A DNA stretch of 64,000 bases from Terriglobus albidus (GTDB taxonomy: Bacteria > Acidobacteriota > Terriglobia > Terriglobales > Acidobacteriaceae), in the NCBI RefSeq assembly GCF_008000815.1, contig NZ_CP042806.1, positions 1,984,001 to 2,048,000 on the forward strand, read 5' to 3'. Shown here in pieces: positions 9,375 through 36,216 of the stretch. Every line of letters begins with the position of its first letter. Position 1 is the stretch's first letter. The notes below the pieces were generated by a model, which saw only the letters and a program-made list of their open reading frames with translations, was not told the DNA's origin and made no database searches. The position numbers and the translations under genes are program-made.

Positions 9375-10502
9375 CTAGACGATGTCTTTGGCGGAGGAGA
9401 GTGCACTGTAGCTTTCGATCTGGCCCAGGGTGAAGGCGTGCATGTCGGCCTGCGAGTCCCAGTTTTTATACCAGCGCACCAGGTACTCCAGTGCCGCATC
9501 GAGCCGTAGCGCAGGAGCCCAGTCAAGGTCGGCGCGGGCGCGGCTGGCATCCAGCTTCAGGTAGTGGGCCTCGTGCGGAGATGGCGCGTCGTCAATCACC
9601 CAGGAGGCGCCGTCTCCCCAGAACGCCGACATATGCTCCGCAATCCACGCCACGGGACGGGCATCATCTTCGATGGGACCGAAGTTGTAGGCGGTGGCGT
9701 ATCTGGGATCATGAGTGAGCAGCCGTTCGGCGAGCTGAATATATCCGCGAAGCGGTTCGAGAACATGCTGCCATGGACGGATTGCATGCGGCCGTCTGAT
9801 CAGAACCGGCTTTTGCGACAGAAACCCGCGGACAAGGTCGGGGAGGAGGCGATCGTTTGACCAGTCGCCACCGCCAATCACGTTTCCGGCTCGCGCCGTT
9901 GCAACGGCCACCTGATGAGTTTTGCCAAGCTGCGCAACAGGGAAGTATGACTGCCGGTACGCCGCGCTTACGATCTCGGCACAAGCCTTACTGCTGGAAT
10001 AGGGGTCGTACCCTCCAAGCGGATCTGTCTCGCGATATGGCCAGATCCACTCTTTGTTTTCATAGCACTTGTCTGTCGTAACGGAGACGACAGCACGAAC
10101 GCTCGGAGTCCGCCGAACGCTGTCAAGAACCTTCGCCGTGCCGATGACGTTGGTCTCATAGGTGCCGATCGGGTCTTCATACGAATGAAGAACTAACGGC
10201 TGCGCCGCGAGATGAAAGACCACCTCCGGAGCGAACTCCCGCATGGCGGCTTCGAGCTTGGCCGCGTCGCGAATATCCCCGCGAATGTCTTCGATCACCG
10301 AGCCGACACGAGCAGCGGTGAAGAGATTCGGCTCGGTGCAGGGATCGAGTGCATAGCCGCGAACCGTGGCGCCAAGCTGAGCGAGCCACAGCGCCAGCCA
10401 TCCGCCTTTGAAGCCCGTGTGCCCTGTGAGAAAGACCTTGCGACCTTGCCAGGAGAAGGTCTGTGCCTGAGCGTGCTCGGCTGCTATCACCAGACCCTCC
10501 AT
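9375..10502 (-). CDS. rfbG: CDP-glucose 4,6-dehydratase
   Basis: 375 residues, extended SDR. It converts CDP-D-glucose to CDP-4-keto-6-deoxyglucose, the second step towards CDP-3,6-dideoxyhexoses. Visible: VFLTGHTGFKGGWLALWLAQ (the HTGFKG form of the NAD(+) motif diagnostic for RfbG), VFHLAAQPLV, the VSVTTDKCYEN stretch, and the catalytic pair in YDPYSSSKACAE. The start overlaps the end of rfbF by 16 bp, so the two are coupled. rfbH is divergently transcribed 0.9 kb away, completing the first three steps of the pathway. Confidence 0.93.
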   Translation of the reverse strand: MEGLVIAAEHAQAQTFSWQGRKVFLTGHTGFKGGWLALWLAQLGATVRGYALDPCTEPNLFTAARVGSVIEDIRGDIRDAAKLEAAMREFAPEVVFHLAAQPLVLHSYEDPIGTYETNVIGTAKVLDSVRRTPSVRAVVSVTTDKCYENKEWIWPYRETDPLGGYDPYSSSKACAEIVSAAYRQSYFPVAQLGKTHQVAVATARAGNVIGGGDWSNDRLLPDLVRGFLSQKPVLIRRPHAIRPWQHVLEPLRGYIQLAERLLTHDPRYATAYNFGPIEDDARPVAWIAEHMSAFWGDGASWVIDDAPSPHEAHYLKLDASRARADLDWAPALRLDAALEYLVRWYKNWDSQADMHAFTLGQIESYSALSSAKDIV

Positions 10503-11257
10503 GGGGCATTGCCTGAGTTCCAGAGCTCTTCCAGGTACTGCTTGTCGCGGAGCGTGTCCATGGGCTGCCAGAAGCCGCGATGCGAGAAGGCATGGACTTC
10601 CCGGCGTGCGACCAATGCTTCAATCGGCTCACGCTCGAACATCTGCCGGTCATCGGTGATATCGTCCAGTACCTTTGGTGAAAGGACGAAGAATCCACCG
10701 TTGATCCAGCCGCCCTCTTCAGCTGGTTTTTCGTGAAACGAGTGAATCTGTGTTCCGTTAAGTCCCAGACCTCCAAATCGAGCGACGGGCTGCACACTGG
10801 TCAGCGTTGCACTCTTTCCGTGCGAGCGATGAAAATTAATCAGCGCTGTGATGTCCACATCGGAGACGCCATCGCCATACGTCATGCAGAAGGCTTCGTC
10901 GTCTTTGATGTACGGGGCAACCCGCTTTAACCGTCCGGCTGTCCCGGTCGAGTCTCCGGTGTCGACGAGCGTCACACGCCAAGGTTCAGCTACCGAATCA
11001 TGCACCGTCATTTTGTTTTCCTTCATATCGAAGGTGACGTCAGAGGTGTGCAGGAAGTAGTTGGCGAAATACTCCTTGATCACATAGCCCTTGTAGCCGC
11101 AGCAGATGATGAAATCTTTAATGCCATGCGCCGAGTAGATTTTGAGGATGTGCCAGAGAATAGGGAGGCCGCCAATTTCGACCATCGGTTTAGGGCGGAC
11201 AGAAGTTTCTTCGCTGATACGGGTGCCAAGACCACCGGCAAGAATGACAGCTTTCAT
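10487..11257 (-). CDS. rfbF: Glucose-1-phosphate cytidylyltransferase
   Basis: 256 residues, normal for RfbF. It makes CDP-glucose from CTP and glucose-1-phosphate. The nucleotidyltransferase signature is VILAGGLGTRISEETSVRPK; also GLPILWHILKIYSAHGI, IICCGYKGYVIKEYF and TYGDGVSDVDI, which carries the metal-binding aspartate. It is transcribed towards rfbG with overlapping ends and away from rfbH, so the 137-bp gap to rfbH probably holds divergent promoters. Confidence 0.94.
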   Translation of the reverse strand: MKAVILAGGLGTRISEETSVRPKPMVEIGGLPILWHILKIYSAHGIKDFIICCGYKGYVIKEYFANYFLHTSDVTFDMKENKMTVHDSVAEPWRVTLVDTGDSTGTAGRLKRVAPYIKDDEAFCMTYGDGVSDVDITALINFHRSHGKSATLTSVQPVARFGGLGLNGTQIHSFHEKPAEEGGWINGGFFVLSPKVLDDITDDRQMFEREPIEALVARREVHAFSHRGFWQPMDTLRDKQYLEELWNSGNAPWRVW

Positions 11258-11394
11258 TTCAATCCTTTAGAAGCCAAAATGTAACCATGATACGGGGTGG
11301 GTCGTAATCAGGAAGCGATGAAAGTGTTCATCGCCATCTTGGAGATCGAATCGTCTTTCGACTCACAAAATTGCTGTGTATGCTAATTCTACAG
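11258..11394. promoter_or_regulatory. Divergent rfbF / rfbH intergenic region
   Basis: The only non-coding stretch between oppositely transcribed genes of one pathway, so promoters for both are expected here. On the plus strand TATGCTAAT near 11378 is a possible -10-like element. No clear ribosome-binding site precedes rfbH. Specific promoter calls are weak. Confidence 0.4.
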
Positions 11395-12732
11395 ATGACT
11401 GATAAAGCAGCAGCGATCCGCCAGCAAATCCTCGAATTGACTGCACAGTTTCACGCAGAGGCTTTTCCTGCCAGAAAGTTTACGCCAGGCACATCAGTCG
11501 TACCCGTCTCCGGCAAGGTGATCGGACCGGAGGATATCTGCTCCGTCGTCGACTCCGCGTTGGACGGATGGTTTACGACAGGGCGCTTCGCGAAGGACTT
11601 CGAGCGAAAGCTCGCGCGCTTTGTCGGCGTCCGCTCTGCCTCGCTGGTTAACTCAGGGTCGTCCGCCAATCTTGTTGCGCTCAGCGCGCTGACGTCGCCC
11701 AAGCTGGGGGATCGTCAGTTGAAGCCCGGCGATGAAGTAATCACTGTGGCCGCGGGATTTCCCACGACGGTGAACCCGATCCTGCAAAACCGGCTCGTAC
11801 CGGTCTTCCTGGATGTCACTCTGCCTACCTATGAGATCGACGTCACGCGACTGGAGGAGGCGTACAGTCCGAAGACGAAGGCCGTCATGATCGCGCATAC
11901 GCTGGGCAACGTCTTCAATCTCGATGCGATCACGGCGTTCTGCAAAAAGTACAATCTCTGGCTTGTAGAGGACTGCTGCGACGCGCTTGGCTCGACATAC
12001 AAAGGCCGGAAGGTGGGCACCTTTGGGGACATCGCCACGGTCAGCTTTTATCCTGCTCACCACATCACCATGGGAGAGGGCGGAGCCGTGCTGACGGACA
12101 AGCCCGCACTGCAGGTCCTGATCGATTCATTCCGCGACTGGGGCCGCGACTGCTGGTGTGAGCCTGGCGTCGACAACACCTGCGGGAAGCGGTTTGATTG
12201 GCAGCTCGGCACACTGCCCTGCGGATACGATCACAAGTACACCTACTCGCACGTGGGCTACAACCTGAAGGCGACCGACATGCAGGCTGCCCTCGGCGTC
12301 TCGCAGATCGAAAAGCTGCCGCAGTTCATCGAAAAGCGAAAAGAGAACTTCGCTTATTTGAGAAACGCATTGAAGCCGCTCGAGGAGTTCCTTCTGCTCC
12401 CGGTGGCGACCGAGAACTCGGATCCCAGCTGGTTCGGCTTTCCCATCGGCGTGAAGACCAGTGCGCCATTTACGCGCGACCAGCTGACCCGCGCACTTGA
12501 AGCACAGAAGATCGGTACGCGCCTTCTGTTCGCAGGGAACCTGCTTCGTCAGCCCGCATATGAAGGTTACGAGTACCGCGTGATTGGCGACCTCGCCAAT
12601 ACCGACTTCGTGATGAACCAGGTCTTCTGGATCGGTGTCTATCCCGGGCTCACCACCGAGATGCTGGACTTCATCGCTAAGACGATGACTGAGTTTGCCG
12701 TCTCGGTCGATGAAGGGCTGAAGGTTCTTTAG
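11395..12732 (+). CDS. rfbH: CDP-4-keto-6-deoxy-D-glucose-3-dehydrase (E1), PLP/[2Fe-2S]
   Basis: About 445 residues from ATG 11395; an earlier in-frame ATG at 11371 would add eight non-conserved residues. It removes the C3 hydroxyl of CDP-4-keto-6-deoxyglucose through a PMP adduct. The PLP-lysine of the aminotransferase fold is replaced by histidine in [14 protein letters not shown], diagnostic of E1. The iron-sulphur cysteines fit the E1 spacing: one in [11 protein letters not shown] and then [11 protein letters not shown] (C-X1-C-X7-C). The reductase partner (E3/RfbI) is not seen nearby. Confidence 0.94.
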
Positions 12733-12836: not shown

Positions 12837-12856
12837 TAACCCGGGCGCGACTGCAT

Positions 12857-13090
12857 CTACTTTGGTTTGAAACCGTTCCATCCGGCCATCCGCCGGATGG
12901 ACTCATCCAGACCAACGGTCGGTCGCAGGTTCAGCAGGCGCTGCGCCTTTTGCACGGACGCGGCCGAAGAAGCCGGTCCCGCCGGTAATGAAGAGCCTTT
13001 GGCCTTTCATCTCCTCCAGCATCGGGGAGATTGCGCGCAGAATGTACTCCAGATCGGATTCGGGAAGCGGCCTTGGCGTCGTCGACTCTT
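12857..13090 (-). pseudogene. NAD-dependent epimerase/dehydratase relic with internal deletion
   Basis: The 5' part reads LPESDLEYILRAISPMLEEM then GQRLFITGGTGFFGR, the Rossmann N-terminus of an NAD-epimerase. After about 36 codons the reading jumps, with a one-base frame change, to SVQKAQRLLNLRPTVGLDES then IRRMAGWNGFKPK and a stop at 12857-12859, the C-terminus of the same family. Some 250 central codons are missing (junction near 12960). Both ends resemble the intact epimerase at 27576-28640 (QGRRIFVTGGTGFFG; ELRPTVSLRECIRRTA). It begins immediately at the end of the GtrB gene, so it was probably the next operon gene. Confidence 0.8.
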
Positions 13091-14140
13091 CTAAGTCCCT
13101 TCCATCTCGATCGGCTGAGCCTGCGACTCCATGGAACTCATACTGGCCGCTTCGTATTCTATAGATACACTTTGAGGGACGGGCGTAGGTACCTGTGGCT
13201 CGATGTCGAAGTTAATCCGGTCGAGTTCAACTGCGTAAGGCCGCTTCTGTACCTGCGTGTAAATTGCGCCTATATACTCGCCCATGACCCCCATGAAGAC
13301 CAGTTGAATGGACGCGATGAAGAACACCCCGATGACGGTTGGCGCCAGGCCCAGGCTGAAGGTATTCCAGAAGATGACTTTGGCGATGGTGTAAGCGACT
13401 GCGACAAACAATGACAAGGCCGCGCCACCGAAACCAACGAACGTGGCCAGGCGCAACGGAACCCTGGAGTGGTTGATTATCCCCAGCATCCCAATGTCAT
13501 AAAGCGTGTACCAGTTATTCTTTGTGATGCCGAACTTGCGCTTAGGCTGATCGTAATAGATCTTCTTGTACGGAAGGCCTATCTCCGCGATCATTCCGCG
13601 GAAGTACGGATACGGGTCACCGAACGATCTGACAAACTCAATCACCTTGCGATCGTAGAGACCAAAGCCCGTGAAGTTTTGAAAGGTCTCAATGTTCGAA
13701 AGCCGCTCTGCAATCCTGTAATACTGCTTGCGGAGGAAGAAGACCAGCGAGTGCTCCTCGCTTGTCTTCTTGATCCCGATCACCATATAAGAACCAGCTT
13801 CCCACTCTTCGACGAAGGTGACGATCATGCTGGTGGGATCCTGCAGGTCCGCGACGATCAGCACGATGGCGTCGCCCGATGCCTGCAGCAGCGCGTGTAT
13901 TGGAGACCGTATATGCCCGAAGTTACGGGCATTGATGATGACCTTCACATTAGGATCAGACGCGGCCAGGCGCTTGAGAATCGGCACAGTGTTATCGAGT
14001 GAGCTGTTGTCGATGAAGATGTGCTCGTAGCGATAGCGCCCGATTCCAGCCATCACGTTGCGAACCTGCCGATAAACCTCCTCGACGTTGTCCTGTTCGT
14101 TGTAGCACGGCGTTACGACGCTGATCGTCTTCAAGGGCAC
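13091..14140 (-). CDS. GtrB-like polyprenyl-phosphate glycosyltransferase (GT2)
   Basis: 349 residues. The N-terminal GT-A domain begins ISVVTPCYNEQDNVEEVYRQ and has IDNSSLDNTVPIL and VADLQDPTSMI (DXD-like); two C-terminal membrane helices follow (ATFVGFGGAALSLFVAVAYT and TVIGVFFIASIQLVFMGVMG), then a cytoplasmic tail. The family moves a sugar onto undecaprenyl phosphate at the inner face. The GtrA-like flippase gene is 20 bp upstream on the same strand and a GT-C-like membrane protein follows further upstream, together resembling an O-antigen decoration module (GtrA-GtrB-Gtr). Confidence 0.9.
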   Translation of the reverse strand: MPLKTISVVTPCYNEQDNVEEVYRQVRNVMAGIGRYRYEHIFIDNSSLDNTVPILKRLAASDPNVKVIINARNFGHIRSPIHALLQASGDAIVLIVADLQDPTSMIVTFVEEWEAGSYMVIGIKKTSEEHSLVFFLRKQYYRIAERLSNIETFQNFTGFGLYDRKVIEFVRSFGDPYPYFRGMIAEIGLPYKKIYYDQPKRKFGITKNNWYTLYDIGMLGIINHSRVPLRLATFVGFGGAALSLFVAVAYTIAKVIFWNTFSLGLAPTVIGVFFIASIQLVFMGVMGEYIGAIYTQVQKRPYAVELDRINFDIEPQVPTPVPQSVSIEYEAASMSSMESQAQPIEMEGT

Positions 14141-14160: not shown

Positions 14161-14742
14161 TTAAGCAGTATGGCTTTCTGTGGCTACCGCGGAATTCGAT
14201 TGGGTTGGAAGGCCGGATTTATCAGTATTGCGTCGCGAAAAGGAGAAGTTTTTGTGCGCCAGGTAGGTATAAATCGTTGTTCCTCCCATAACGACGGCGC
14301 CTGCAAGATAAGGCGCGACGCCGCGCAGCGGAGCGATGGACTGCAGCAGCTTGGTGAGGACTGGAAGGATAAAGAGGCCTGGAATGGTTGCGCTGCCATA
14401 GACGGCAAAGCAGCGGAGCCACTCTTTGAGATAGTCTCCCTTGGTGCGAAAGACGAAGGTCTTGTAGGTAAGAAAAGACATCGTCACCCCGATAGGGGTT
14501 GCGGTGATAGACGCAAGATCGACCGTGAAAGGAAGATAGCGCGCCGGGAGCAGGTGGTTGTACAGCGCGACGAAGACTGCGTAACAGCCATATCCAAAGA
14601 GCGTGTTTCCAACTCCCACGACGAGATATCGCAGGACCTCCCGGGCCGGAAACAATCGCATGATCGTTCCCGCAACGCCGGGTTGACGAACCCTGGATGC
14701 CTCTGGGGAAAGGCTGGGACCGTTGCTGATCATAGTCTCCAT
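14161..14742 (-). CDS. GtrA-like small membrane protein (polyprenyl-phosphate-sugar flippase)
   Basis: About 193 residues from ATG 14742 (ATG 14733 is an alternative). The longer frame to 14895 reads through the dispersed repeat at 14798-14906 and was rejected. Four hydrophobic segments are visible, starting at EVLRYLVVGVGNTLFGYGCY, the GtrA/DPMS-type motif; a later one holds IGVTMSFLTYKTFVFRTKGD. The C-terminus is YLAHKNFSFSRR. The family is proposed to flip the lipid-linked sugar made by GtrB; the gtrB gene lies directly downstream. Confidence 0.88.
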   Translation of the reverse strand: METMISNGPSLSPEASRVRQPGVAGTIMRLFPAREVLRYLVVGVGNTLFGYGCYAVFVALYNHLLPARYLPFTVDLASITATPIGVTMSFLTYKTFVFRTKGDYLKEWLRCFAVYGSATIPGLFILPVLTKLLQSIAPLRGVAPYLAGAVVMGGTTIYTYLAHKNFSFSRRNTDKSGLPTQSNSAVATESHTA

Positions 14743-14797
14743 TCTCTCAAAAATCGGTCCACAAAAGCGATATTGCCAGATAAAGGAAGCAAGTCTC

Positions 14798-14906
14798 AGA
14801 GCATTTTCGTTGTTGCTGGGTATCCCGGGAGGCGGAGTGCAGCCGTGTTTCATCGCGGAAAACGCCCATAGATGCGGAGCCCTACTCCACACCAAGGAAA
14901 AGCTCT
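14798..14906. repeat. Dispersed palindromic element, copy C (full)
   Basis: A 109-bp member of the 8744 family: ends AGAGCATTTTCGTTGTTGCT and AAGGAAAAGCTCT, centre CGCGGAAAACGCCCATAGAT. It sits between the gtrA-like gene and the membrane protein gene upstream, and its right end overlaps the final bases of the latter (stop at 14905). Confidence 0.82.
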
Positions 14907-16440
14907 AATGTTGCAAATGACCGTCAGTCAACGCCACGTTCCCGGATTTCAATAAGTAGATTCTGTAGCCGCGTGGGTTGATGGGATCGTACATACGGGT
15001 TACGTCCAAAGAATAGTTCGAGTTGAGAAACTCAACAAACTGTGGCCATTGCGCGATCTTTTCAAACGATTCCGGCTGACCGAGCCCCGATGTTGTCAGG
15101 ACGATGACCCCGGGAGGATTGTGTTGAACTTCCTCCAGGAACATGTTGCGATAGTAAGCCGAGGGATGGCTGCCGGGCGGGCCGAAGAGCATGAAGTCGC
15201 CCAGGAATTTTGTGTGATGTACCAGGCCAACGCGGTACAGTGCGCCGAGACAGCCGGATACCATGTCAAGGCACTGCACCTGGTTCTGCAGTTTGGGACC
15301 ACCCAGGCGATTAAGATCCAGCACAAGTGCGTCTGTCAGCTCAGAGTTTGGTTTTGCCCCATAGATCGAAACACAGTATCCGGGGATCAGCAGGAGAACG
15401 CCGGCGACGCCTGTCAATCCCAGGCCGCGCGTCCAACCCTGCATCTTCATCGCGCGGCAAAACTCCAGCCCCATCCACAAAAGCAGGAAGGCCGTAAGTG
15501 GATAACGATGGTAGGAGAAGCCTTTTCGCTGAGCGACGAAGGAAAGCGCTCCGAAGCATATTGTCACCGCGAGGGCCTGTCGCTCCCAATTCTTCCAGTC
15601 TTTGTTTCTGAGGGTAAGAATCAGCGTGATCAGCAGCAGGGGAATAAACGCAATGCGCGGAGGAAGAAGGATGAGAAGCGTGACTATATCAAGATTGCCT
15701 ACCCCCGCGTAATAAGGCAGAAGGCGCTTCGTGATGCTCAGGAAATCACCCGTAGCATGATATCGAAGCAGGAACCCCGCGATGATGAGCGACGCGGCGG
15801 CGAAACCCAGAAGCGCGAACCCTATATAAGGAATGACTGCTTCTTTTCGTCTCCGCAGCGGAGGGATCGACATCAGCAGAAGAATGACGCCAAGGGGGGC
15901 AGCCATAGGCTTTAGCGAGGCGGCCAACCAGACCAGAAAGCCGAACGGAAGCATCAGCAGGGGGCGCCTTGCCCGCAGAGCTGAGAAGGCAAAGGCAATT
16001 CCGGCCACGATCAGCACCGTCATGACCTCTTCCCGTTGGGCGGCATTCCCGGCCCCCTCGGCTCCATGGATGATAGTGAACATCGCTCCGCCAAATAGCC
16101 CTGCCAGCCAGTCGTACGGCCAGGCGATCACGATCATGGATGCAGTAAGAACGGCGAGCAGAAAGAAGTCATACAGCCGCCAGCCGAGATCGCCAGGTCC
16201 AAAGATCCGCAATGCCCAACCTTCGATGAAGTAGGAGCCAGGCATGTTCATGTCGACAATGTCGCGGTACGGAGCCTTGCCGTGATCTATGAAAAAGTTG
16301 ACGTAGTGCATGGCAGAGGTGTCCCACTGCCAGCTCCAGTTGATCGAGCGATACGCAAAAAAGAATGCGGCGACGCAAAATATCACAATGGACGCGGCCC
16401 GGAAAATTCCTATAAAACGAGGCGCTGGCGCTCTTTCCAT
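14905..16440 (-). CDS. Polytopic membrane protein, GT-C (GT39-like) glycosyltransferase candidate
   Basis: About 511 residues from ATG 16440 (AGGGG lies about 8 nt upstream; a TTG at 16446 is also in frame). Roughly ten hydrophobic segments. After the first helix comes the loop SWQWDTSAMHYVNFFIDHGK then APYRDIVDMNMPGSYFIEGW, whose acidic residues and position match the catalytic loop of GT-C enzymes using polyprenyl-phosphate sugars. A soluble C-terminal domain of about 150 residues follows. With GtrB and GtrA directly downstream it is the likely transferase of a surface glycan modification set. The substrate is unknown. Confidence 0.75.
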   Translation of the reverse strand: MERAPAPRFIGIFRAASIVIFCVAAFFFAYRSINWSWQWDTSAMHYVNFFIDHGKAPYRDIVDMNMPGSYFIEGWALRIFGPGDLGWRLYDFFLLAVLTASMIVIAWPYDWLAGLFGGAMFTIIHGAEGAGNAAQREEVMTVLIVAGIAFAFSALRARRPLLMLPFGFLVWLAASLKPMAAPLGVILLLMSIPPLRRRKEAVIPYIGFALLGFAAASLIIAGFLLRYHATGDFLSITKRLLPYYAGVGNLDIVTLLILLPPRIAFIPLLLITLILTLRNKDWKNWERQALAVTICFGALSFVAQRKGFSYHRYPLTAFLLLWMGLEFCRAMKMQGWTRGLGLTGVAGVLLLIPGYCVSIYGAKPNSELTDALVLDLNRLGGPKLQNQVQCLDMVSGCLGALYRVGLVHHTKFLGDFMLFGPPGSHPSAYYRNMFLEEVQHNPPGVIVLTTSGLGQPESFEKIAQWPQFVEFLNSNYSLDVTRMYDPINPRGYRIYLLKSGNVALTDGHLQH

Positions 16441-16654
16441 CGGCAAAACCCCTATCTCAATAATCTATCGTTCAGGAGCTGCGCGTACACCCAATTTCTA
16501 ATGGCGGACGTGTCGCCAGTGTAGGCCGCCATGACCTCCGGCTCTATTGCCACCGCTGCTCAATGATAGTGCGATTATGCCATGCCCATCTTGCAGAGCA
16601 GTAAAAAAAGACGTGTCTGTAAGGGAAGCGCATGTTGCGTGCCGAACGAGCGGC
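16441..16654. other. Intergenic, nothing recognised
   Basis: 214 bp between the membrane protein start and the end of the GH36-like gene, both on the minus strand. No repeat copy, no clear terminator hairpin and no coding signal were seen. Confidence 0.4.
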
Positions 16655-23236: not shown

Positions 23237-24034
23237 GTGAACTCGCAAGAACGCAAGATGTTGGACATTCTTAAGCAGGGCCGGGACGAGTACGGATACG
23301 TTGCGGTGAAAGCAGAGTACGAGGCCGAAGGGACGCGCGTCGATGAGCTGCTGCGTCTTGTGGAAATCTGTCGGAAAGCCAATCTGAAGCTCGCCGTCAA
23401 GATAGGTGGCTGTGAAGCCATGCGCGACTTGATGGAGACTAAGCAGATTGGCGTGGATTACATCATCGCACCGATGGTCGAGAGCCGCTACGCGCTGTCG
23501 AAATTCGCAGAAGCCATCGGCAAGGTCTACACGGACGGGGAGCGGGCGGATACGGAATTCCTCTTCAATCTCGAAACAATCAATGCGTATAACGTGCTCG
23601 ACGAGTTGATCGAGTTTGCGGCTTCGGCTCCAGAAATCGCTGGTCCGGTGTTCGGGCGCGTGGACTTTTCATTGTCAGCCAACCTCGGGCGTGACGCCAT
23701 CAACACGCGCGAAGTGACTAATTACGTTCTGGAAGTCGGACGCAAAGCCAAGGCCAAGGGGCTTGATCTCGTGGTCGGGGGCGGCGTCTCGTCCGATTCG
23801 ATCCCCGTGCTGAAGGAAATGGTGGATGTGCACCTTACTCGATTCGAAACCCGCAAGGTCATCTTCAACGCGGAAGCAGCCCGTGCCCAGCACATCGATC
23901 AAGGTCTGCTGAATGCGGTTCATTTCGAACTTCTCTGGTTGCTCAACAAGCGCGAATACTACGGTGCTATCCATAGGGAGGACGCCAAGCGTATCGATAT
24001 GCTTGAGAAGCGATGGGAAGTTCTAAACAAATGA
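23237..24034 (+). CDS. HpcH/HpaI-type aldolase/citrate lyase family protein
   Basis: 265 residues, TIM barrel. The GTG start at 23237 is supported by AGGAGG five bases upstream. Family landmarks: [45 protein letters not shown] and [13 protein letters not shown], the last two carrying acidic metal ligands. These enzymes form or cleave C-C bonds between pyruvate-type enolates and aldehydes or act on CoA esters. First gene of a five-gene run with overlapping ends (SDR, DHQ-synthase-like, ThDP enzyme, epimerase), so a biosynthetic aldol role in making an unusual sugar or carbocycle is inferred. Confidence 0.82.
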
Positions 24035-24744
24035 GCTTGCCGGAGCAGCATCTGCTTGTGTTCGGGGCATCGGGGGCCATCGGTGCGGAAATCTGCCGCA
24101 TGGCTTCCGATGCATCATGGCAGGTGACGGGCGTTTCTCGTACTGGTATCGAAGAAACAGGCCGAATCCGTTCGATTGTTGCCGACCCACTTGCGCCAGG
24201 GTTCTGTGCCGAGCAATTAGCCTCTCAAGTCCCCTACACGGGGATATGCTGGGCTCAGGGAATGAATGCCACTGATAGTGTGTACTCGGTGCAACAGGCC
24301 AAAAACCTGGAACTCTACTCGGCTAATTGCCTGTACATCCTGGAAACCCTAAAGATTCTTCTTGGGGAAAAGCTGCTAGCGCCGGGTTCGCGTCTTTGTG
24401 TGATTTCTTCTATTTGGCAGAATCTGGCCCGGCAGAACAAACTTTCGTATTGCATGACGAAAGCGGCTATTCAGGGGCTGGTGCTCTCTGCTTCGGTGGA
24501 CTTGGCGCCCGAAGGGCACCTGATTAACGCTGTTCTTCCGGGCGCGGTGGATACGCCGATGACCCGAACCAACCTCTCGGCGCAGCAGATCGATCGGATG
24601 ACCGGTGGAACGGAGTTTCACCGCCTGACGTCGCTTATGGATGTCGCGTCGGCCGTCTTGTACTTGTGTTCGCCGCAAAACACCGGCATCACGGGGCAGT
24701 TCATTTGTGTAGATCTAGGATGGAGCCGTGCCCGCATCGTTTAG
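24031..24744 (+). CDS. SDR family oxidoreductase of the sugar operon
   Basis: About 237 residues from ATG 24031, which overlaps the aldolase stop as ATGA. Rossmann motif [25 protein letters not shown] in place of the usual NAG; catalytic serine in [10 protein letters not shown] and [11 protein letters not shown] as the YXXXK pair; the C-terminal [13 protein letters not shown] is a classical SDR ending. The next gene starts inside its 3' end. Probably a ketone/alcohol conversion on the pathway intermediate. Confidence 0.85.
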
Positions 24745-25801
24745 CATCCAATCTGCGTCCGGTAGTTACGATGTGTCTGTTCAGCAGGGGAGCTTTGTCA
24801 CTCTGCTGGAGCAGGTGGAAGGCGCCACGATTTTAGCCGATGAGTTTCTTCGGCCCCTCTTGGTCAACGCAGGCGTTCCAGCCACATTTGTTCAGGCGAT
24901 TGAAGAGAACAAATCTCTTGAAGCCTCGCCTCTGCTGATCCAGCAGATGCGCGCTGCGGGGGTGAACCGGCAGACTCGGTTGATCGCGGTTGGCGGCGGG
25001 ATTGTTCAAGACATCTCGGCGTTTATCGCTTCGGTCTATATGCGCGGCATCGAGTGGACGTACGTGCCTACGACGGTTCTTTCGATGGTTGATTCCTGCA
25101 TCGGCGGCAAGAGCTCGATCAACGTCGGCCCATACAAAAATCTTGTGGGAACATTCCACCCTCCTGTGCAGATCACGATTGATCCGGCACTTATCACGAC
25201 CTTGCCCCAAGCCGACCGCGCGAGCGGTTTAATCGAAGCTGCGAAGATTTGCTTCTGCAGGGGGGAGGACGCATTCAACGAGTACCTTAGCTTTCAACCC
25301 TCGGCGTCCATGCCCCTCGCAGATCTCGAAGGTGTCATCAACATCAGCCTTCTTTCGAAAAAATGGTTCATCGAGATCGACGAGTTCGACAAGAAGGAAC
25401 GTCTGCTCCTGAACTTTGGCCACACGTTCGGCCATGCGATTGAGGGGGCGACGCACTTTGGCATTCCGCATGGCATCGCAGTTGGGCTGGGCATAGCTTG
25501 TGCTCTCGAATTCGGAGAGATGGCCGGTACCGAATATAGTGCAACCCCGGCAGTGCGGTATCTGCGGGATCACATCGCGAATCTGGTGAGCTCTTGCCCC
25601 GATGTGGGCGAGCGACTCCAGGCGATGTCGCTCCAAGACGTGCTGGACCGCTTCCGCAGCGACAAGAAGCACGGCAAAGACTTTTACACCCTGATCCTAG
25701 TCAGTGAGAAAGGTGCCGTTGAGCTTCGCCGCTTGCCTAAAGACAACCAAACCATCGCCCGCGTCCAGCAGGCGTTTGAACGAGTGATCGGCAAATTCTG
25801 A
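24728..25801 (+). CDS. 3-Dehydroquinate-synthase-like sugar phosphate cyclase
   Basis: 357 residues with a GTG start overlapping the SDR by 17 bp. It belongs to the DHQ synthase/sugar phosphate cyclase fold: LIAVGGGIVQDISAFIASVY (NAD binding), VPTTVLSMVDSCIGGKSSIN (DHQS has KTGVN here), metal ligands Glu in SGLIEAAKICF and His residues in LNFGHTFGHAIEG and HFGIPHGIAVG. The context lacks shikimate genes and the GKSSIN variant departs from ordinary AroB, so a secondary cyclase forming a carbocycle (as for 2-deoxy-scyllo-inosose or valiolone-type products) is more likely than housekeeping DHQ synthesis. Confidence 0.82.
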   Translation: MPASFSIQSASGSYDVSVQQGSFVTLLEQVEGATILADEFLRPLLVNAGVPATFVQAIEENKSLEASPLLIQQMRAAGVNRQTRLIAVGGGIVQDISAFIASVYMRGIEWTYVPTTVLSMVDSCIGGKSSINVGPYKNLVGTFHPPVQITIDPALITTLPQADRASGLIEAAKICFCRGEDAFNEYLSFQPSASMPLADLEGVINISLLSKKWFIEIDEFDKKERLLLNFGHTFGHAIEGATHFGIPHGIAVGLGIACALEFGEMAGTEYSATPAVRYLRDHIANLVSSCPDVGERLQAMSLQDVLDRFRSDKKHGKDFYTLILVSEKGAVELRRLPKDNQTIARVQQAFERVIGKF

Positions 25802-27579
25802 TGAGTGAATCGAAGTACAGCGATGTTTTAGCAGATTGGCTCCAGCAGCTTGGTTATACGCACTGCTTTTTCGTAGCGGGTGGAAACATCATGCACCTTC
25901 TGGAAAGCTGTAGTCAGCGTATGACCTGCATCCCCGTTATGCACGAAGTTGCTTCCTGCATTGCGGCGGAATACTTCAACGAAGTGCATCTCGGAGGCAA
26001 AGCCTTCGCGCTTGTTACCGCCGGCCCTGGGATGACGAACGCGGTGACGGGCATCGCAGGGGCGTATCTGGAAAGCCGCGAAGTTCTGGTCATTGGCGGA
26101 CAGGTAAAGGTCTCGGATCTGGCACGCGATGAAGTCCGGCAGCGTGGGATCCAAGAGATCGATGGTGTTGCCATAGCTAAGCCCATCACTGAGAAGTCAC
26201 TGCGCTTGGAGCGCGTGGTAGATCGCGCAACGTTTGCTGAGATGACAGTCAGCGGAAGCTCTGGCCGAAAAGGGCCAGTGTTCCTTGAAATCCCGCTGGA
26301 TCTCCAAGGTGCGCGCGTCGATGCGAGCGGGTTAGAGACGCCTCTACGCAGCGCCGCGCCGGTCATGAAGCAGCTGCCCCCAGATCTGATTGGGGAGCTC
26401 GCTGCTAAACTGCGCAGCTCCAAACGGCCCGTCCTGTTGCTGGGCGCGGGTATCGATCGGTGCGTGAGCGACTCGATGCAGGAGTCTCTTGCAGAGTTCG
26501 GTGTTCCGGTATTTCTTACTTGGAATGCCATGGACCGGCTGGGCAGCGACCATCCGATGTACTTCGGCCGCCCGAACACGTGGGGTCAGCGGTCCGCCAA
26601 TATTCTTCTTCAACAGTCGGATCTCCTCCTTGCCTTGGGCACACGGCTGAGCCTGCAGCAGACTGGATTTAACTGGCAGAACTTCGCTCCCCTTGCCGAA
26701 GTCGTGCAGGTGGATTGCGATCCCGCCGAACTGGCCAAAGGCCATCCTATCGTCGACTTGAAGGTCTGCGGAGATGCCAATGAGGTGCTTCGCGAGCTGC
26801 TCAGCCACAATGCAGGGAACCACACCGACTGGGTCCAATTTTGTCGCTTCGTTCGCGAGCAGCTTCCCCTCGTAGAAGAGAACCAGACGGGCGAAGGGTA
26901 CCTGTCGCCGTATGTATTTGCGCAGCAGCTCGGCCAGCTCGCATTGGATTCGGACATAGTGATTCCTTGCTCCAGCGGGGGGGCGTTCACGACGATGATG
27001 CAGGCCTTTTCCCAGAAGCTCGGACAACGCATTGTCTCGAACAAGGGGCTCGCCTCAATGGGGTACGGGCTAAGCGGAGCTATTGGCGCGGCAGTGGCCG
27101 GCAAGGGGAAGCGTACGATCCTCGTGGAGGGTGATGGCGGCTTCACCCAAAACATGCAGGAGCTTGGAACTGTGCGCCAGAACCGACTCAATCTGAAGAT
27201 ATTTGTCTTCGACGACCACGGCTACGCCTCAATCCGAATGACCCAGCGGAATTACTTTGGTGGACGGTACGTGGGCTGCGATATCGAAACCGGTCTTGGC
27301 ATGCCGGACTGGACCCACCTGTTTGCCGCCTACTCCATTCCGATGCTCCGCATCGGGCCAGGCTTTGCAAGCGATGCCGAGTTCCTCAAGCACTTCGACG
27401 CAGAGGGGCCTGCCGCATTTGTGGTCAGCATCGATCCCAAACAGACCTACTTTCCTAAGATCACCAGCCGCGTCACGGCCAGCGGAAGCATGGAGTCGAA
27501 CCCGCTCCACGTTATGTCTCCCGATCTTGAACCGTCCATTGCCGCAAGGGTTCTGCCTTACCTTCTGGAGCGCGAATGA
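25801..27579 (+). CDS. Thiamine diphosphate-dependent enzyme (acetolactate synthase-like)
   Basis: 592 residues in the three-domain ThDP arrangement: PYR domain with the catalytic Glu in VMHEVASCIAAEYF and VTAGPGMTNAVTGIAGAYLE; a central domain (PVLLLGAGIDRC); PP domain with the ThDP/Mg motif VEGDGGFTQNMQELGTV. The ATG shares a base with the preceding TGA, giving tight coupling. Related enzymes transfer two- or three-carbon units from pyruvate; YerE-type members attach them to nucleotide-linked ketosugars. Next to an aldolase and a cyclase-like gene this suggests carbon-carbon extension of a sugar. It is not expected to be housekeeping acetolactate synthase, since no small subunit or ilv genes are near. 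Confidence 0.83.
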   Translation: MSESKYSDVLADWLQQLGYTHCFFVAGGNIMHLLESCSQRMTCIPVMHEVASCIAAEYFNEVHLGGKAFALVTAGPGMTNAVTGIAGAYLESREVLVIGGQVKVSDLARDEVRQRGIQEIDGVAIAKPITEKSLRLERVVDRATFAEMTVSGSSGRKGPVFLEIPLDLQGARVDASGLETPLRSAAPVMKQLPPDLIGELAAKLRSSKRPVLLLGAGIDRCVSDSMQESLAEFGVPVFLTWNAMDRLGSDHPMYFGRPNTWGQRSANILLQQSDLLLALGTRLSLQQTGFNWQNFAPLAEVVQVDCDPAELAKGHPIVDLKVCGDANEVLRELLSHNAGNHTDWVQFCRFVREQLPLVEENQTGEGYLSPYVFAQQLGQLALDSDIVIPCSSGGAFTTMMQAFSQKLGQRIVSNKGLASMGYGLSGAIGAAVAGKGKRTILVEGDGGFTQNMQELGTVRQNRLNLKIFVFDDHGYASIRMTQRNYFGGRYVGCDIETGLGMPDWTHLFAAYSIPMLRIGPGFASDAEFLKHFDAEGPAAFVVSIDPKQTYFPKITSRVTASGSMESNPLHVMSPDLEPSIAARVLPYLLERE

Positions 27580-28640
27580 ACTTCTCTCCGCCGATTGAAG
27601 AACGCGACCTGGAACTGGTGCTGCAGGCGACAGCATCGCTCTGGGACCAAGCGCAAGGGCGCCGAATCTTCGTTACCGGTGGCACAGGATTTTTCGGCGC
27701 TTGGCTGCTGGAGAGTTTCGCCTACATCCGGCGCAAGATGAAATTGGACACCACGCTTGTAGCCCTTTCGCGGCGGCCTGAGGCATTTCGTGACAAAATG
27801 CCGCATCTGTTCAGGGAGGAAGGCATTGAACTGATTGAGGGCGACGTCCGTGACTTTGCCTTTCCCGAAGGCACCTTTCACTACGTGGTTCACGCTGCCA
27901 CGGAAGCGAGCGCCAAGCAGTTGGCCGAACAGCCGGGCCAGATGCTCTCGACGATCCTCGGCGGGACAGAGCGAACGTTGCAGTTTGCGGCGGAACACGG
28001 GACGAGACGGTTCCTCCTGACGAGCTCCGGAGCTGTGTACGGCCGCCAGCCCAGTGAGATAACTCGTTTACCGGAAAGCTATTCGGGCGCGCCCGATCCC
28101 ACACAGGCGGGGAGCGCCTACGGCGAAGGCAAGCGAACTTCAGAGCTTCTTTGTTCGTTGTTCGCCAAACAATATGGCATAGATTGCGCCATTGCACGCT
28201 GCTGGGCATTCTGTGGACCGCATCTGCCGCTGACAAGTCACTTTGCCATAGGGAATTTCATCCGCGATGTCATCACAGGCGGCCCTATCCGCATCGGCGG
28301 AGACGGAACTCCGACACGCTCTTACCTCTACGCGGCAGACCTCACCATTTGGCTTTGGACCATGCTCTTCCGTGCACCTTCTATGCGGCCCTATAACGTA
28401 GGGTCTAGCCAGGGCATGTCGATCCGAGACCTTGCCGAGGCTGTACGCGATGCACTCGACTCGAATGCGGAGATCGAACTCGCGGCCAAGCCGCAACCGG
28501 ATGGTCCTATCTCGCGTTACGTACCCTCGATCGAACGTGCTGAGTTTGAGCTGGAGCTTCGCCCGACGGTTTCACTGCGGGAGTGCATCCGCCGCACCGC
28601 TGTTTGGTACGGCTGGAGTGAGAACGCAACCCAGTTATAA
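27576..28640 (+). CDS. NAD-dependent epimerase/dehydratase, nucleotide-sugar type
   Basis: 354 residues, extended SDR, start overlapping the ThDP gene by ATGA. RIFVTGGTGFFGAWLLESFA; HYVVHAATEAS; LLTSSGAVYGRQP with the active-site serine; GSAYGEGKRTSELLC with the YXXXK pair; FCGPHLPLTSHFAIGNFIRD; a C-terminal LRPTVSLRECIRRTAVWY. Typical of CDP/GDP/dTDP-sugar 4,6-dehydratases or epimerases. Last intact gene of the operon; the following glycosyltransferase is truncated. A deleted paralogue lies at 12857-13090 beside gtrB and the rfbFGH genes. Confidence 0.87.
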   Translation: MNFSPPIEERDLELVLQATASLWDQAQGRRIFVTGGTGFFGAWLLESFAYIRRKMKLDTTLVALSRRPEAFRDKMPHLFREEGIELIEGDVRDFAFPEGTFHYVVHAATEASAKQLAEQPGQMLSTILGGTERTLQFAAEHGTRRFLLTSSGAVYGRQPSEITRLPESYSGAPDPTQAGSAYGEGKRTSELLCSLFAKQYGIDCAIARCWAFCGPHLPLTSHFAIGNFIRDVITGGPIRIGGDGTPTRSYLYAADLTIWLWTMLFRAPSMRPYNVGSSQGMSIRDLAEAVRDALDSNAEIELAAKPQPDGPISRYVPSIERAEFELELRPTVSLRECIRRTAVWYGWSENATQL

Positions 28641-28705
28641 AAAAATTAGTATCATCCGCCCAGCCTACAACGAAGAAGATAACCTCACACCCCTCGTTGA
28701 ACGGA
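28641..28705 (+). pseudogene. GT2 glycosyltransferase, N-terminal stub only
   Basis: Directly after the epimerase stop the sequence reads KKISIIRPAYNEEDNLTPLV, the opening beta-strand and helix of a GT2 glycosyltransferase, then loses similarity near 28700 where an antitoxin-like sequence begins. No ATG precedes it. It was probably the sixth gene of the sugar operon before a deletion or insertion removed the rest. Confidence 0.65.
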
Positions 28706-28869
28706 ACGAAAGAGCGTCGGAGAGGTCATATCCGCACTTGCTCAACGTGCCCTGGTGCCCCCGAAACTGGCCGGAAGACGCGAAACGGTGTGCCCTGTTG
28801 TCGACCAATCCAGGGACTCCGCGTATAACTTCCGAATTGGTGCATCAGCTGCGTGAGGAATTGCAGTGA
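28700..28869 (+). pseudogene. VapB-like antitoxin, frameshifted remnant
   Basis: One frame reads ERKSVGEVISALAQRALVPP then KLAGRRE, a typical VapB/RHH antitoxin body. After a frame change the rest continues as ALLSTNPGTPRITSELVHQL then REELQ and a stop. The GTG of the following vapC overlaps this TGA, the usual antitoxin-toxin coupling. The 5' end is missing (fused to the glycosyltransferase stub). Confidence 0.6.
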
Positions 28870-29151
28870 CGCGATTTTTGCTGGATGTCAATGTGTTGAT
28901 CGCGCTGATTGCTGATGTGGGCGGGGTCACTGATGACAACCTTTATGGCTCACTCGGGGCATGAGTTCTGGCCGGATAATGTCACGCTGCTGGATGGCAA
29001 ACATACTGACTCTGCGCGTCTGCCGGACTCCGCCCAGGTAACGGACAGCTATCTATTAACGCTGGCTTCGGGCGGAAAACCGGCGACTTTCGACTGGCAA
29101 CTTGTCACCGATGCTGTGAATGGGGCGCAGGCTTTGCAGCTGATTAACTGA
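28866..29151 (+). pseudogene. VapC (PIN domain) toxin, deleted and frameshifted
   Basis: It starts GTG ACG CGA... as MTRFLLDVNVLIALI, the PIN N-terminus with the first acidic residue, then runs to a stop after NLYGSLGA. The downstream frame gives GHEFWPDNVTLLDGK, SAQVTDSYLLTLASGGKPAT then FDWQLVTDAVNGAQALQLIN, the PIN C-terminus. The middle, including a catalytic acid, is missing. The module cannot make an intact toxin. Confidence 0.72.
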
Positions 29152-29182
29152 AGGCAAGCAGGTCTCTACTTCACCCAATAGA

Positions 29183-33131: not shown

Positions 33132-35471
33132 ATGCAATTCAAATCAGGATTGACTAGGGGAGGGTCGCTCAGCCTTCTGTCCACATTCTTATTCGTGTCA
33201 CAATTTGCCGCAAGCGAAGGTGGTCAGAGCTCCCCCGAAACTAAACCTACATCCCTGACGGCGCCGGGTGATTGGCCAATGGTCGGTCGTGATTCGACAG
33301 GGGCACGTTATTCCCCGCTGACACAGATCACCCCGGAGAATGTGAATAAATTAGCGGTTGCATGGGTTTATCACATGAAGCCGGCAGCAAGTACCGGCAC
33401 GACGCAGTCTCCCTCAACAGCTTCACCGGCGATATCGAGCTTCCATCAGTCGGAAGATCAGCCCCTAGTGATCGGTACGACGATGTATGTAGTCACTCCC
33501 TACAGTCGAATCGTTGCTTTGGATTCGGCAACGGGTGCGGAGAAGTGGGTGTTTGATATTCCCGACGATGACAATGCTTCGATGCGTGGCTGCGCCTATT
33601 GGCCCGGCGATGCAACTTCAGGGCCTTCCATCATCTTCGGCACTCGTCTCGGACGCATGTATTCGATTAGCGCAGCAACGGGACGGATCAACTCCGACTT
33701 CGGTACCGACGGGATGGTTAATCTCAAAACCCCCGAAGTTATGACGACCGGCATGGATAAGAGCTTTATTTTGCCTTCTCCGCCGGTTATTTATAAGGGA
33801 TTGGTCATTACAGGTGCGGGACCTGGGGAGGGGCCGGGAGGAGCATTCGGGGGCGTTGGTCCTGCCGGCGACACTCGTGCATGGGATGCACATACGGGCA
33901 AGCTGGTATGGACGTTTCACTCCGTTCCGCGGCCGGGAGAGCCAGGACACGAAAGCTGGACAGGCGATTCCTGGAAGGATCGGTCGGGCGTCAACGTCTG
34001 GGGTTACATGACGATCGATGAGGCGCGAGGCATTCTCTATATGCCTCTAGGTGCGCCTAATAATGATCGCGTTGGTGTGGATCGGCCAGGCGATAATTTA
34101 TTCGGTTCTTCGCTCGTTGCCGTCAATGTAAATACGGGTAAGCTGCTGTGGTATTTTCAAGTGGTTCACCACGACATCTGGGATATCGACACCCAGTCGC
34201 CACCGACTCTGTTTGATGTAAAGCGCGCCGGCAAAATCATCCCCGTGGTAGCCACTGTTAATAAAAACGGATTGATGTTTATTCTCGATCGCGTTACGGG
34301 CAAGCCGATCTACGGTGTTGTGGAGCGACCGGTTCCTGCAAGTAATGTTCCTGGAGAAAAGGCTTCTCCAACACAACCGTTCCCCGTGCTTCCCGAACCG
34401 CTTTCGCAAACAACTCTAAGCCGATCGAATCTATACAAGGACACCCCTGAGCATCAGGCATGGTGTGAACGATATGTCGACGACAACAATATGCTCCTCG
34501 GAGATGTATATACCCCTCCAGCATTAGATCGCTATACCGTCGTTCTGCCCGGGACACAAGGCGGCGTGAACTATTATGGCGGGGCGTTCGATCCTAAGCT
34601 CGGTCTATTCATCGCCAATGTGAACAATCTTGCGCAGCCGGTGCGTGTGATACGCAGCGCTGATGGGAGCTATATCAACTCGGGGCCGCTCGCGGGCGTG
34701 GTGCGTTTCTGGAATCCCAGCAACCACTTACCTTGTGGTCCCACGCCCTGGGGAGAGTTGGTGGCTGTCGACGTCAACACCGGAAAGATAGCATGGCGCT
34801 CGACACTGGGAGTTACCGACAGCTTGCCCGAGGGGAAGCGGAATACCGGTAGGCCCGGCCTTGGCGGAGCTATCATCACGGCCAGTGGATTGGTCTTCAT
34901 TGGTGCTACCGATGACTCTCGCTTCCGGGCATTCGATGCAAAAAACGGAAAAGAGATTTGGACAGTCAAATTGCCGGCTTCCGCAGAGGCTACGCCGATT
35001 ACCTATACCGCAAATGGTAAGCAATATGTAGCTGTTGTCGCGACCGGGGGCGGTCTCATCGGCGCGAAATTGGCCAGTGACTCATTGATGGTGTACAGCC
35101 TTCCCGATGCGAATGGCGAGGTGGTATCTCGGCGGGCACAGCCTTCTGCAACAGCGCCGCAGGTATCGTCCTCTGTGAAGGCAACGCCGACCGTGGCTAC
35201 TCCACAGCTTATGAAACAACTAAGCGCATCCGACCTCGCTCCCTTTCCGACGGGTTCAGGTCGAGAGACGACTCTTCGCGTGTGCTCCGGCTGTCATTCC
35301 GTTTCAATGATAGCTACGCAGCATCTTGATGCCCAGGCGTGGAACGATCTGGTTCAGGTTATGGCTGGTCGTGGCGCTGTGGCTAGCGATACAGAGTTCG
35401 AACAGATCGCAGCTTACTTAGCAAAATCGTTTCCCAAGCATCCACCATCGGCTCCGCCTGCTCACCCCTAA
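33132..35471 (+). CDS. Quinoprotein (PQQ) dehydrogenase fused to a C-terminal c-type haem domain
   Basis: 779 residues. Signal peptide to about residue 30. Propeller start WPMVGRDSTGARYSPLTQIT then PENVNKLAVAW; repeats ALDSATGAEKWVFDI, WDAHTGKLVWTFHS, AVNVNTGKLLWYFQV and AVDVNTGKIAWRST; catalytic-type HHDIWDIDTQSPP. A proline/serine-rich linker then leads to about 75 residues with one haem motif RVCSGCHSVSMIA near residue 717. Glucose-dehydrogenase-like architecture with a built-in electron acceptor. A duplicate of the linker and haem domain lies at 36214-36644. Confidence 0.9.
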   Translation: MQFKSGLTRGGSLSLLSTFLFVSQFAASEGGQSSPETKPTSLTAPGDWPMVGRDSTGARYSPLTQITPENVNKLAVAWVYHMKPAASTGTTQSPSTASPAISSFHQSEDQPLVIGTTMYVVTPYSRIVALDSATGAEKWVFDIPDDDNASMRGCAYWPGDATSGPSIIFGTRLGRMYSISAATGRINSDFGTDGMVNLKTPEVMTTGMDKSFILPSPPVIYKGLVITGAGPGEGPGGAFGGVGPAGDTRAWDAHTGKLVWTFHSVPRPGEPGHESWTGDSWKDRSGVNVWGYMTIDEARGILYMPLGAPNNDRVGVDRPGDNLFGSSLVAVNVNTGKLLWYFQVVHHDIWDIDTQSPPTLFDVKRAGKIIPVVATVNKNGLMFILDRVTGKPIYGVVERPVPASNVPGEKASPTQPFPVLPEPLSQTTLSRSNLYKDTPEHQAWCERYVDDNNMLLGDVYTPPALDRYTVVLPGTQGGVNYYGGAFDPKLGLFIANVNNLAQPVRVIRSADGSYINSGPLAGVVRFWNPSNHLPCGPTPWGELVAVDVNTGKIAWRSTLGVTDSLPEGKRNTGRPGLGGAIITASGLVFIGATDDSRFRAFDAKNGKEIWTVKLPASAEATPITYTANGKQYVAVVATGGGLIGAKLASDSLMVYSLPDANGEVVSRRAQPSATAPQVSSSVKATPTVATPQLMKQLSASDLAPFPTGSGRETTLRVCSGCHSVSMIATQHLDAQAWNDLVQVMAGRGAVASDTEFEQIAAYLAKSFPKHPPSAPPAHP

Positions 35472-36115: not shown

Positions 36116-36216
36116 GGATGGGTCTTCTCTGACCTAAATGCTCCATTACGTGGCAGCCATGTCCCACTGGTCAACCAGGAATTATTCGACAAAGTCCAAG
36201 ATGTGCTGGCAGGAAG
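36116..36216 (+). pseudogene. Large serine recombinase fragment
   Basis: The frame reads GWVFSDLNAPLRGSHVPLVN then QELFDKVQDVLAGR. The stretch HVPLVNQELFDKVQDVLAGR matches the conserved end of the Recombinase domain of large serine recombinases (typically ..PLVSRELFDRVQEVL.G). It stops exactly where the duplicated quinoprotein tail begins, so it marks a recombination junction. Only about 33 codons remain. Confidence 0.55.

Follow-up and report, generated by a model that had tools for sequence, protein, structure and literature searches.

Which product would require a pyruvate aldolase, two short-chain dehydrogenases/reductases (SDRs), a homolog of 3-dehydroquinate synthase (DHQS) and a thiamine diphosphate (ThDP) enzyme to be encoded in a single operon? 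The question is raised by positions 23,237 to 28,705 of a 64,000-nucleotide stretch of the Terriglobus albidus genome (contig NZ_CP042806.1, positions 1,984,001 to 2,048,000), referred to below as the window. A preliminary description, made from the sequence alone, had proposed an unusual carbocyclic or carbon-branched sugar. From the genes and their relatives in other genomes we consider it rather probable that the operon builds the long branch of a caryophyllose-type, C4-branched cytidine diphosphate (CDP) sugar for a surface glycan, by means of a DHQS homolog that eliminates phosphate and closes no ring. Judged by pathway logic and gene content, the case for a branched sugar is strong, and a non-cyclizing role of the DHQS homolog is likely.

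The operon and its enzymes

Inspection of the open reading frames (ORFs) and their translations showed that all five genes are intact, co-directional on the + strand and overlapping, with the families named in the preliminary description. The operon and the remnant behind it are laid out as follows.

23237..24034, + strand, HpcH/HpaI-fold pyruvate aldolase (PF03328; AlphaFold2 (AF2) model; PDB fold matches)
24031..24744, + strand, classical SDR (PF13561/PF00106; an SDR of this kind in 58 of 58 loci with DHQS)
24728..25801, + strand, DHQS homolog (PF01761 and PF24621; TIGR04425 and TIGR01357 scores; tree; motifs; AF2 fold)
25801..27579, + strand, predicted YerE-like ThDP carboligase (three TPP domains in Pfam; best PDB match 8rph)
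27576..28640, + strand, extended SDR ("epimerase"; PF01370; one of two extended-SDR types)
28621..28704, + strand, remnant of the N-terminus of a family 2 glycosyltransferase (GT2), about 28 codons (tblastn against the GT2 of locus L011, 46% over 28 amino acids, 2e-5)

The aldolase ORF has a GTG start with AGGAGG just ahead of it. The start of the classical SDR is probably the ATG at 24031, which gives an ATGA overlap with the aldolase (the longest ORF begins at 24013). The DHQS-like ORF starts with GTG, overlaps the SDR by 17 bp and is joined to the ThDP gene by TGATG, while an ATGA overlap joins the ThDP gene to the extended SDR. The GT2 stub noticed earlier is indeed a remnant; in relatives, the same gene is followed by a GT2 whose N-terminus it matches.

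The DHQS homolog shares the fold and the catalytic motifs of AroB (3-dehydroquinate synthase) but differs from it in family membership. Its score against the AroB model TIGR01357 was 232.9 bits, below the cut-off of 305. In a quick tree, for which we chose the AroB rooting, 11 AroB sequences fell on one side (SH-aLRT 100), and the DHQS of the window grouped with those of Acidobacteriaceae clusters; the cluster DHQS formed three subclades. A specialized AroB was therefore rejected. The best curated model was TIGR04425 (AroB-related putative sugar phosphate phospholyase, cyclizing), yet the score of 286.6 bits is below its cut-off of 400. The same model came first for each of nine other cluster DHQS scanned, all ten scoring 270-362 bits, under the cut-off.

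The metal-, NAD- and phosphate-site motifs are kept relative to AroB (GGGxxxD, RG, D..-GGK, KN, K..DE, RxxLNxGHxxGHAxE, HG, DKK). The changes are GGK to GAK or GSK in two subclades and HGE to HGI in the DHQS of the window. In 40 cluster DHQS sequences, E170 and K173 (assigned to their AroB counterparts by eye) are invariant. The structure comparison suggested in the preliminary description confirmed the DHQS fold (AF2 model, pLDDT 94.3) and left the ring-closing subtypes undistinguished, since the fold matches AroB, 2-deoxy-scyllo-inosose synthase and ValA and cannot separate them.

For the ThDP enzyme the best PDB match, 8rph, scored 317 bits and the next one 205. The 8rph structure is that of JanthE, a YerE-like enzyme (PMC12188165). 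The score against the acetohydroxyacid synthase (AHAS) model TIGR00118 was 251 bits with a cut-off of 538. A specialized AHAS was rejected, and the protein is predicted to be a YerE-like carboligase, as had been proposed; its closest sequence relatives are YerE-like and not AHAS. Locally, as had been remarked, neither shikimate nor ilv genes accompany the operon. The AroB of this genome is encoded elsewhere, at C1:1595766 (349.9 bits, cut-off 305), as is its AHAS, at C1:2100109 (716.6 bits, cut-off 538).

The aldolase is barely over the PF03328 cut-off (26.2 bits versus 25) and matched none of the NCBIfam models. Its AF2 model has a pLDDT of 96.9, and the 13 best PDB fold matches are all of HpaI/HpcH type, with modest TMq values of 0.57-0.61; pyruvate kinases and malyl-CoA lyases come lower in the list. 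E113 and D143 are invariant in 42 aldolase sequences, and their equivalence to the metal-binding Glu and Asp was judged by motif. K55 may take the place of the pyruvate-binding Arg.

Gene content of related loci

Of 493 aldolase relatives confirmed in a genome scan, the best 80 defined the loci that we compared. HAD phosphatase and SDR genes counted as present when no more than 3.5 kb from the aldolase; for DHQS, any position in the available DNA of the locus sufficed. The seeds of the HAD and rfb hidden Markov models were hand-picked from the first loci inspected, and the thresholds for score and distance were likewise chosen manually; a weak HAD match 7.7 kb off (L050, 36 bits) was not counted.

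We observed SDR plus DHQS in 58 loci, a HAD phosphatase in 10, both in none and neither in 12. The mutual exclusion had a Fisher value of 4e-7, which treats related loci as independent. A laxer search (E-value 1e-3) over all loci examined found no HAD phosphatase in any locus with DHQS. The ThDP gene was present in 68 of the 80 loci. Since SDR plus DHQS and the ThDP gene recur at these frequencies among the best relatives of the aldolase, the gene set is not a chance assembly. At least one of rfbF, rfbG and rfbH was found in the available DNA of 66 loci and all three in 39, so that the families co-occur with CDP-sugar genes in other genomes. Together with the position of the cyclase outside AroB, this means that neither of the two outcomes named beforehand as contrary to the proposed sugar, a cyclase inside housekeeping AroB or families that do not co-occur, was obtained.

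The picture was similar for the 51 loci flanked by 5 kb or more on each side: SDR plus DHQS in 39, HAD in 8, both in none, neither in 4, the ThDP gene in 48 and at least one rfb gene in 49. The full set (ThDP, DHQS or HAD, extended SDR and an rfb gene) was present in 38 of them. The extended SDR was of the type of the window in 18, of another type in 28, of both types in none and of neither in 5.

The exchange of SDR-DHQS for a phosphatase occurs also inside Acidobacteriaceae. L022, L024 and L026 carry the phosphatase between the aldolase and the ThDP gene, at the very place of the SDR-DHQS pair in the window. The swap was predicted after a HAD gene had been seen in L013, a locus outside the 80, and before the other loci were read. 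All HAD proteins scanned (nine of the 10 and that of L013) passed the Pfam cut-off of HAD_2, and five of the 10 scored below 100 bits against the hand-picked seed model. Mapped on an aldolase tree, the DHQS/HAD state requires 8 changes, of which starred branches force 6 or more, compared to a mean of about 10.5 for shuffled states. This tree was a quick one with long-branch warnings, which concerned among others the HAD rows L008 and L032; 76 of its 88 rows were scored (65 DHQS, 11 HAD, with L059 scored as DHQS on account of an SDR-DHQS pair elsewhere in its genome), and the 12 rows with neither were left out.

Among the 12 loci with neither, a contig ends on one side within about 1.3 kb of the aldolase in L016, L030, L076, L086 and L091. 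L059, a Mycobacterium locus counted in this group, has an SDR-DHQS pair about 17 kb from the aldolase. By eye, transposase-like remnants are visible just behind the aldolase in L168/L169, on the same contig as L059.

Seven DHQS loci (L040, L045, L058, L065, L092, L093, L095) have a more distant ThDP type (302-343 bits). In four of them (L045, L058, L092, L095) we saw rfbF and rfbG and no rfbH in the available DNA, so that the acceptor sugar would keep its 3-OH.

Judging by record titles, the closest relatives of the cluster are in Acidobacteriaceae (Terriglobus, Granulicella, Edaphobacter). The cluster is patchy, given that the aldolase was found in only 4 of 297 sampled genomes of the phylum, that of the window included. 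The DHQS form was seen in six phyla, again judged by record titles, and in T4-like phages. Named phage records gave no aldolase match. Among viral contigs of IMG/VR, aldolase, SDR, DHQS and ThDP genes occurred together in 18 of 50 viral-contig loci (L096-L113), some contigs being near-copies, and 14 of the 18 had an RfbH-like gene of at least 400 bits. Ten contigs were tested (nine with the full set and L114), and a T4-type Gp23 capsid gene was found in 5 and a terminase gene in 6; at least some of the contigs are thus true T4-like phages with a sugar cassette. PHROGs gave a match for only one of ten neighbors of two viral cassettes.

In a plasmid collection there were 3 aldolase matches. One of them, on an Ilyobacter plasmid (L004 14001-14774), is a 34% identical homolog that adjoins aconitase and 2-hydroxyacid dehydrogenase genes, without sugar genes, and this neighborhood suggests that the aldolase family also has a catabolic branch.

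Proposed pathway and its rivals

RfbF, RfbG and RfbH supply CDP-4-keto-3,6-dideoxyglucose. Their genes lie 10-13 kb upstream of the operon, and all three score above curated cut-offs. Starting from these assignments, each gene of the operon can be given one putative step. The aldolase would join pyruvate and a sugar-phosphate aldehyde, most simply erythrose 4-phosphate, to a 3-deoxy-heptulosonate 7-phosphate, a phosphorylated 2-keto-3-deoxy acid; the stereochemistry of caryophyllose implies its D-ribo form, the C4 epimer of 3-deoxy-D-arabino-heptulosonate 7-phosphate. The DHQS homolog with its NAD would oxidize C5, expel the C7 phosphate and reduce C5 as DHQS does, and the elimination product would open to a 6-keto-7-methyl acid with no ring closed. 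The classical SDR would then reduce the C6 ketone, next to the CH3 end. The ThDP enzyme would decarboxylate the acid and add the six-carbon unit to C4 of CDP-4-keto-3,6-dideoxyglucose, after which the extended SDR would reduce the C1' ketone, the last one left. GT2, GtrA-like and GT-C-like proteins would deliver the sugar to the cell surface.

In the alternative loci the HAD phosphatase would hydrolyze the phosphate and leave a CH2OH end. Since the HAD phosphatase and the DHQS homolog would both remove phosphate, the product of the aldolase is most likely a sugar-acid phosphate. The SDR, found in all 58 DHQS loci, would reduce a methyl ketone that only the DHQS route makes, which would explain why the two genes go together. 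If a ring were closed on the keto acid, the ThDP enzyme would be deprived of the 2-keto group it needs; the DHQS homolog is therefore expected to halt ahead of the aldol step, unless its turn comes after that of the ThDP enzyme.

Carboligases of YerE type are known in the yersiniose and erwiniose pathways, which have the CDP-4-keto-3,6-dideoxyglucose acceptor and the carboligase (YerE, ErwE) in common with the pathway proposed for the window (PMC12247030). In yersiniose the donor is pyruvate itself, so that no aldolase, DHQS or SDR is needed for it; the window differs in having a dedicated donor route. Hydroxylated 2-keto acids, for instance 4-hydroxy-2-oxopentanoate, are the preferred donors of ErwE, and MMAR_2332, the enzyme that serves caryophyllose, is said to resemble it in donor preference (PMC12247030). 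These preferences count for the pathway, because pyruvate aldol chemistry gives acids of that kind. Synthesis of YerE-type branched CDP-sugars is of a known kind, and a donor route through DHQS and SDR would be a variant of it.

The closest known system is the lipooligosaccharide (LOS) locus of Mycobacterium marinum (MMAR_2329-2336). In the Mycobacterium genome G466 the order is polyketide synthase, methyltransferase, GT-C, GtrA (these four by eye), RfbG, RfbH, RfbF, GT2, ThDP, aldolase, SDR, DHQS; genome G540 agrees, the GtrA gene not being called there. The aldolase was found in 10 of 396 sampled Mycobacterium genomes, one copy having an internal stop. Three published anchors, MMAR_2340 as the polyketide synthase and MMAR_2333 as a glycosyltransferase (PMC4403928) and MMAR_2332 as the ThDP enzyme (PMC12247030), fit the spacing in G466 exactly. 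MMAR_2331 should therefore be the aldolase, MMAR_2330 the SDR and MMAR_2329 the DHQS homolog; for 2329-2331 and 2334-2336 the M. marinum assignment is a prediction from the adjoining genes seen in other Mycobacterium genomes. When MMAR_2331 was deleted, the LOS-II* that remained was reported to be devoid of caryophyllose, and the authors relate this to the making or the transfer of that sugar (PMC5706390).

At C4, caryophyllose bears a 1,3,4,5-tetrahydroxyhexyl branch, an open chain with CH2 at C2' and CH3 at C6' (PMC5706390). By our derivation this branch matches, carbon by carbon, a decarboxylated 3,7-dideoxyheptulosonate, and the altro prefix of caryophyllose implies D-ribo at C4-C6. On the other hand, the DHQS and SDR of the window fall into a different subclade from the mycobacterial ones, the surface lipid and the host differ, and the extended SDR is of the other type in L057 and L061, the two named mycobacterial DHQS loci with 5 kb on each side. 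The product of the window need not equal caryophyllose, given how divergent the mycobacterial DHQS and SDR are; its sugar may be a stereoisomer or a homolog. In the literature searched we found no description of how the donor chains of caryophyllose-like sugars are made, and the aldolase-to-ThDP idea or more of the route may be in print; no paper among the matches listed stated a link of the DHQS homolog to such sugars.

The carbocyclic half of the earlier proposal, which we consider rather improbable, would fit a different step order. The ThDP enzyme would act first, on the phosphorylated keto acid; the DHQS homolog would then eliminate phosphate from the CDP-bound branch and close a six-membered ring on the C1' ketone, and the SDR would reduce the ring ketone to give a cyclitol-bearing sugar. 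The DHQS fold and catalytic motifs are kept, the NCBIfam name of the nearest family includes "cyclizing", and gene order does not set the order of steps. But this scheme leaves no ketone for the extended SDR, present in 46 of the 51 loci, and the DHQS pocket would have to bind a CDP-sugar. A ring formed earlier, on the keto acid, would remove the alpha-keto group that the ThDP enzyme needs, DHQS and SDR are exchanged for a phosphatase in some other clusters, and a related gene set is known to yield caryophyllose, whose chain is open and ends in CH3 (PMC5706390). By this pathway logic a carbocycle is unlikely: a branched higher sugar, as proposed in the preliminary description, is the best reading, and the carbocyclic or polycyclic part of that proposal did not find support.

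The same logic with another aldehyde partner, for example a pentose or triose phosphate, would give a branch with a length or stereochemistry unlike that of caryophyllose. The substrate of the aldolase cannot be read from its sequence, the cluster DHQS form three subclades, and the branch of gastriose is longer than that of caryophyllose. Against these points, DHQS-type chemistry is known on seven-carbon and six-carbon sugar phosphates, which favors a heptulosonate, and we regard another partner as quite doubtful. MygE and gastriose are both named in PMC12247030; the HAD route is only predicted to be linked to gastriose.

A pathway apart from branched CDP-sugars, such as a second shikimate-type route or one to an aminocyclitol or a bradyrhizose-like sugar, seems very improbable. 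DHQS-fold enzymes do serve such routes. Yet rfbF, rfbG and rfbH are present in the window (66 of the 80 loci have one or more of them), the carboligase is YerE-like, and the cluster DHQS fall outside AroB. In bradyrhizose, by our reading of its structure, every ring carbon bears a hydroxyl group; the product of a pyruvate aldol reaction would retain a CH2. An eleven-gene cluster has been tied to O-antigen and bradyrhizose in Bradyrhizobium (PMC4743980), and in the available part of that paper the terms "dehydroquinate", "epimerase" and "rfb" were not found ("aldolase" was not searched). Bradyrhizose was rejected as unsupported, and for bradyrhizose-like and caryose-like products, both mentioned earlier, we found no positive support.

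Several observations weigh against a non-cyclizing route to a caryophyllose-type branch. A HAD phosphatase was predicted wherever DHQS and SDR are missing, yet it was found in only 10 of the 22 loci without DHQS (8 of 12 with 5 kb on both sides). L031, L050, L062, L075, L081 and L082, in which no contig end adjoins the aldolase on the searched side, have neither and are unexplained, though L082 has only 1.4 kb on one side; the genome of L081 has only an AroB-like DHQS. The ThDP gene is missing from the available DNA of 12 of the 80 loci, three of which (L043, L044, L046) have 5 kb on both sides, and 5 of the 51 loci lack both extended-SDR types. The mycobacterial DHQS (about 160 bits) and SDR (about 60 bits) are divergent from those of the window, and the MMAR gene numbering comes from synteny in other Mycobacterium genomes. 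According to PMC12247030, it has yet to be tested whether MMAR_2332 accepts a ketone. Finally, the AroB-like catalytic motifs are retained, and whether a ring is closed cannot be read from the sequence.

Surrounding genes and implications

Upstream of the operon, the window contains the CDP-sugar genes and a group of putative transfer genes.

9375..10502, - strand, rfbG, CDP-glucose 4,6-dehydratase (TIGR02622, 495.6 bits, cut-off 278)
10487..11257, - strand, rfbF, glucose-1-phosphate cytidylyltransferase (TIGR02623, 452.1 bits, cut-off 300)
11371..12732, + strand, rfbH, CDP-4-keto-6-deoxyglucose 3-dehydrase (NF011936, 744.7 bits, cut-off 423)
12869..13070, - strand, remnant of a second extended-SDR copy immediately after the intact GT2 (two pieces, N-terminal and C-terminal, both at 50% identity, 2e-10 and 1e-7)
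13091..14140, - strand, GT2 of polyprenyl-phosphate glycosyltransferase type (NF047588, 171 bits, cut-off 500)
14161..14895, - strand, small membrane protein, GtrA-flippase-like (by eye; no NCBIfam match)
14905..16446, - strand, polytopic membrane protein, GT-C-like (by eye only)

The GT2 at 13091..14140 is a candidate transferase for the finished CDP-sugar. In L011 and L022, its relatives are located behind the extended SDR. In the window a decayed GT2 start stands behind the intact extended SDR, and a decayed extended SDR behind the intact GT2. It appears that the extended-SDR/GT2 pair was duplicated and that each copy then lost the opposite half, which would explain the GT2 stub. By eye, similar stretches of about 60 bp (12775-12838 and 14850-14910) flank the GT2 and GtrA-like genes; an ungapped repeat search did not report them.

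The genome is a single contig of 6.4 Mb. Downstream of the operon, at 28868-29152, broken frames resemble by eye a PIN-domain (VapC-like) toxin gene. Further on, the ORF 36138-36644 is, by eye, a near-repeat, by partial duplication, of the C-terminal part of the pyrroloquinoline quinone (PQQ)-dehydrogenase/cytochrome-c-like ORF 33132-35471.

More generally, a DHQS-fold enzyme halted before ring closure would be a deoxygenating phospholyase that, together with its SDR, makes a methyl group out of the phosphate-bearing terminus of an aldol product, as a module interchangeable with a HAD phosphatase in a widespread kit for long-branched CDP-sugars. On sequence evidence we hold this generalization to be close to an even call. 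If it is true, each gene of the operon gets one step and the joint travel of DHQS and SDR is explained; gene content would predict the end of the branch, CH3 or CH2OH. A fold known for making rings would gain a non-cyclizing member, and many uncharacterized surface-glycan clusters would become easier to read.

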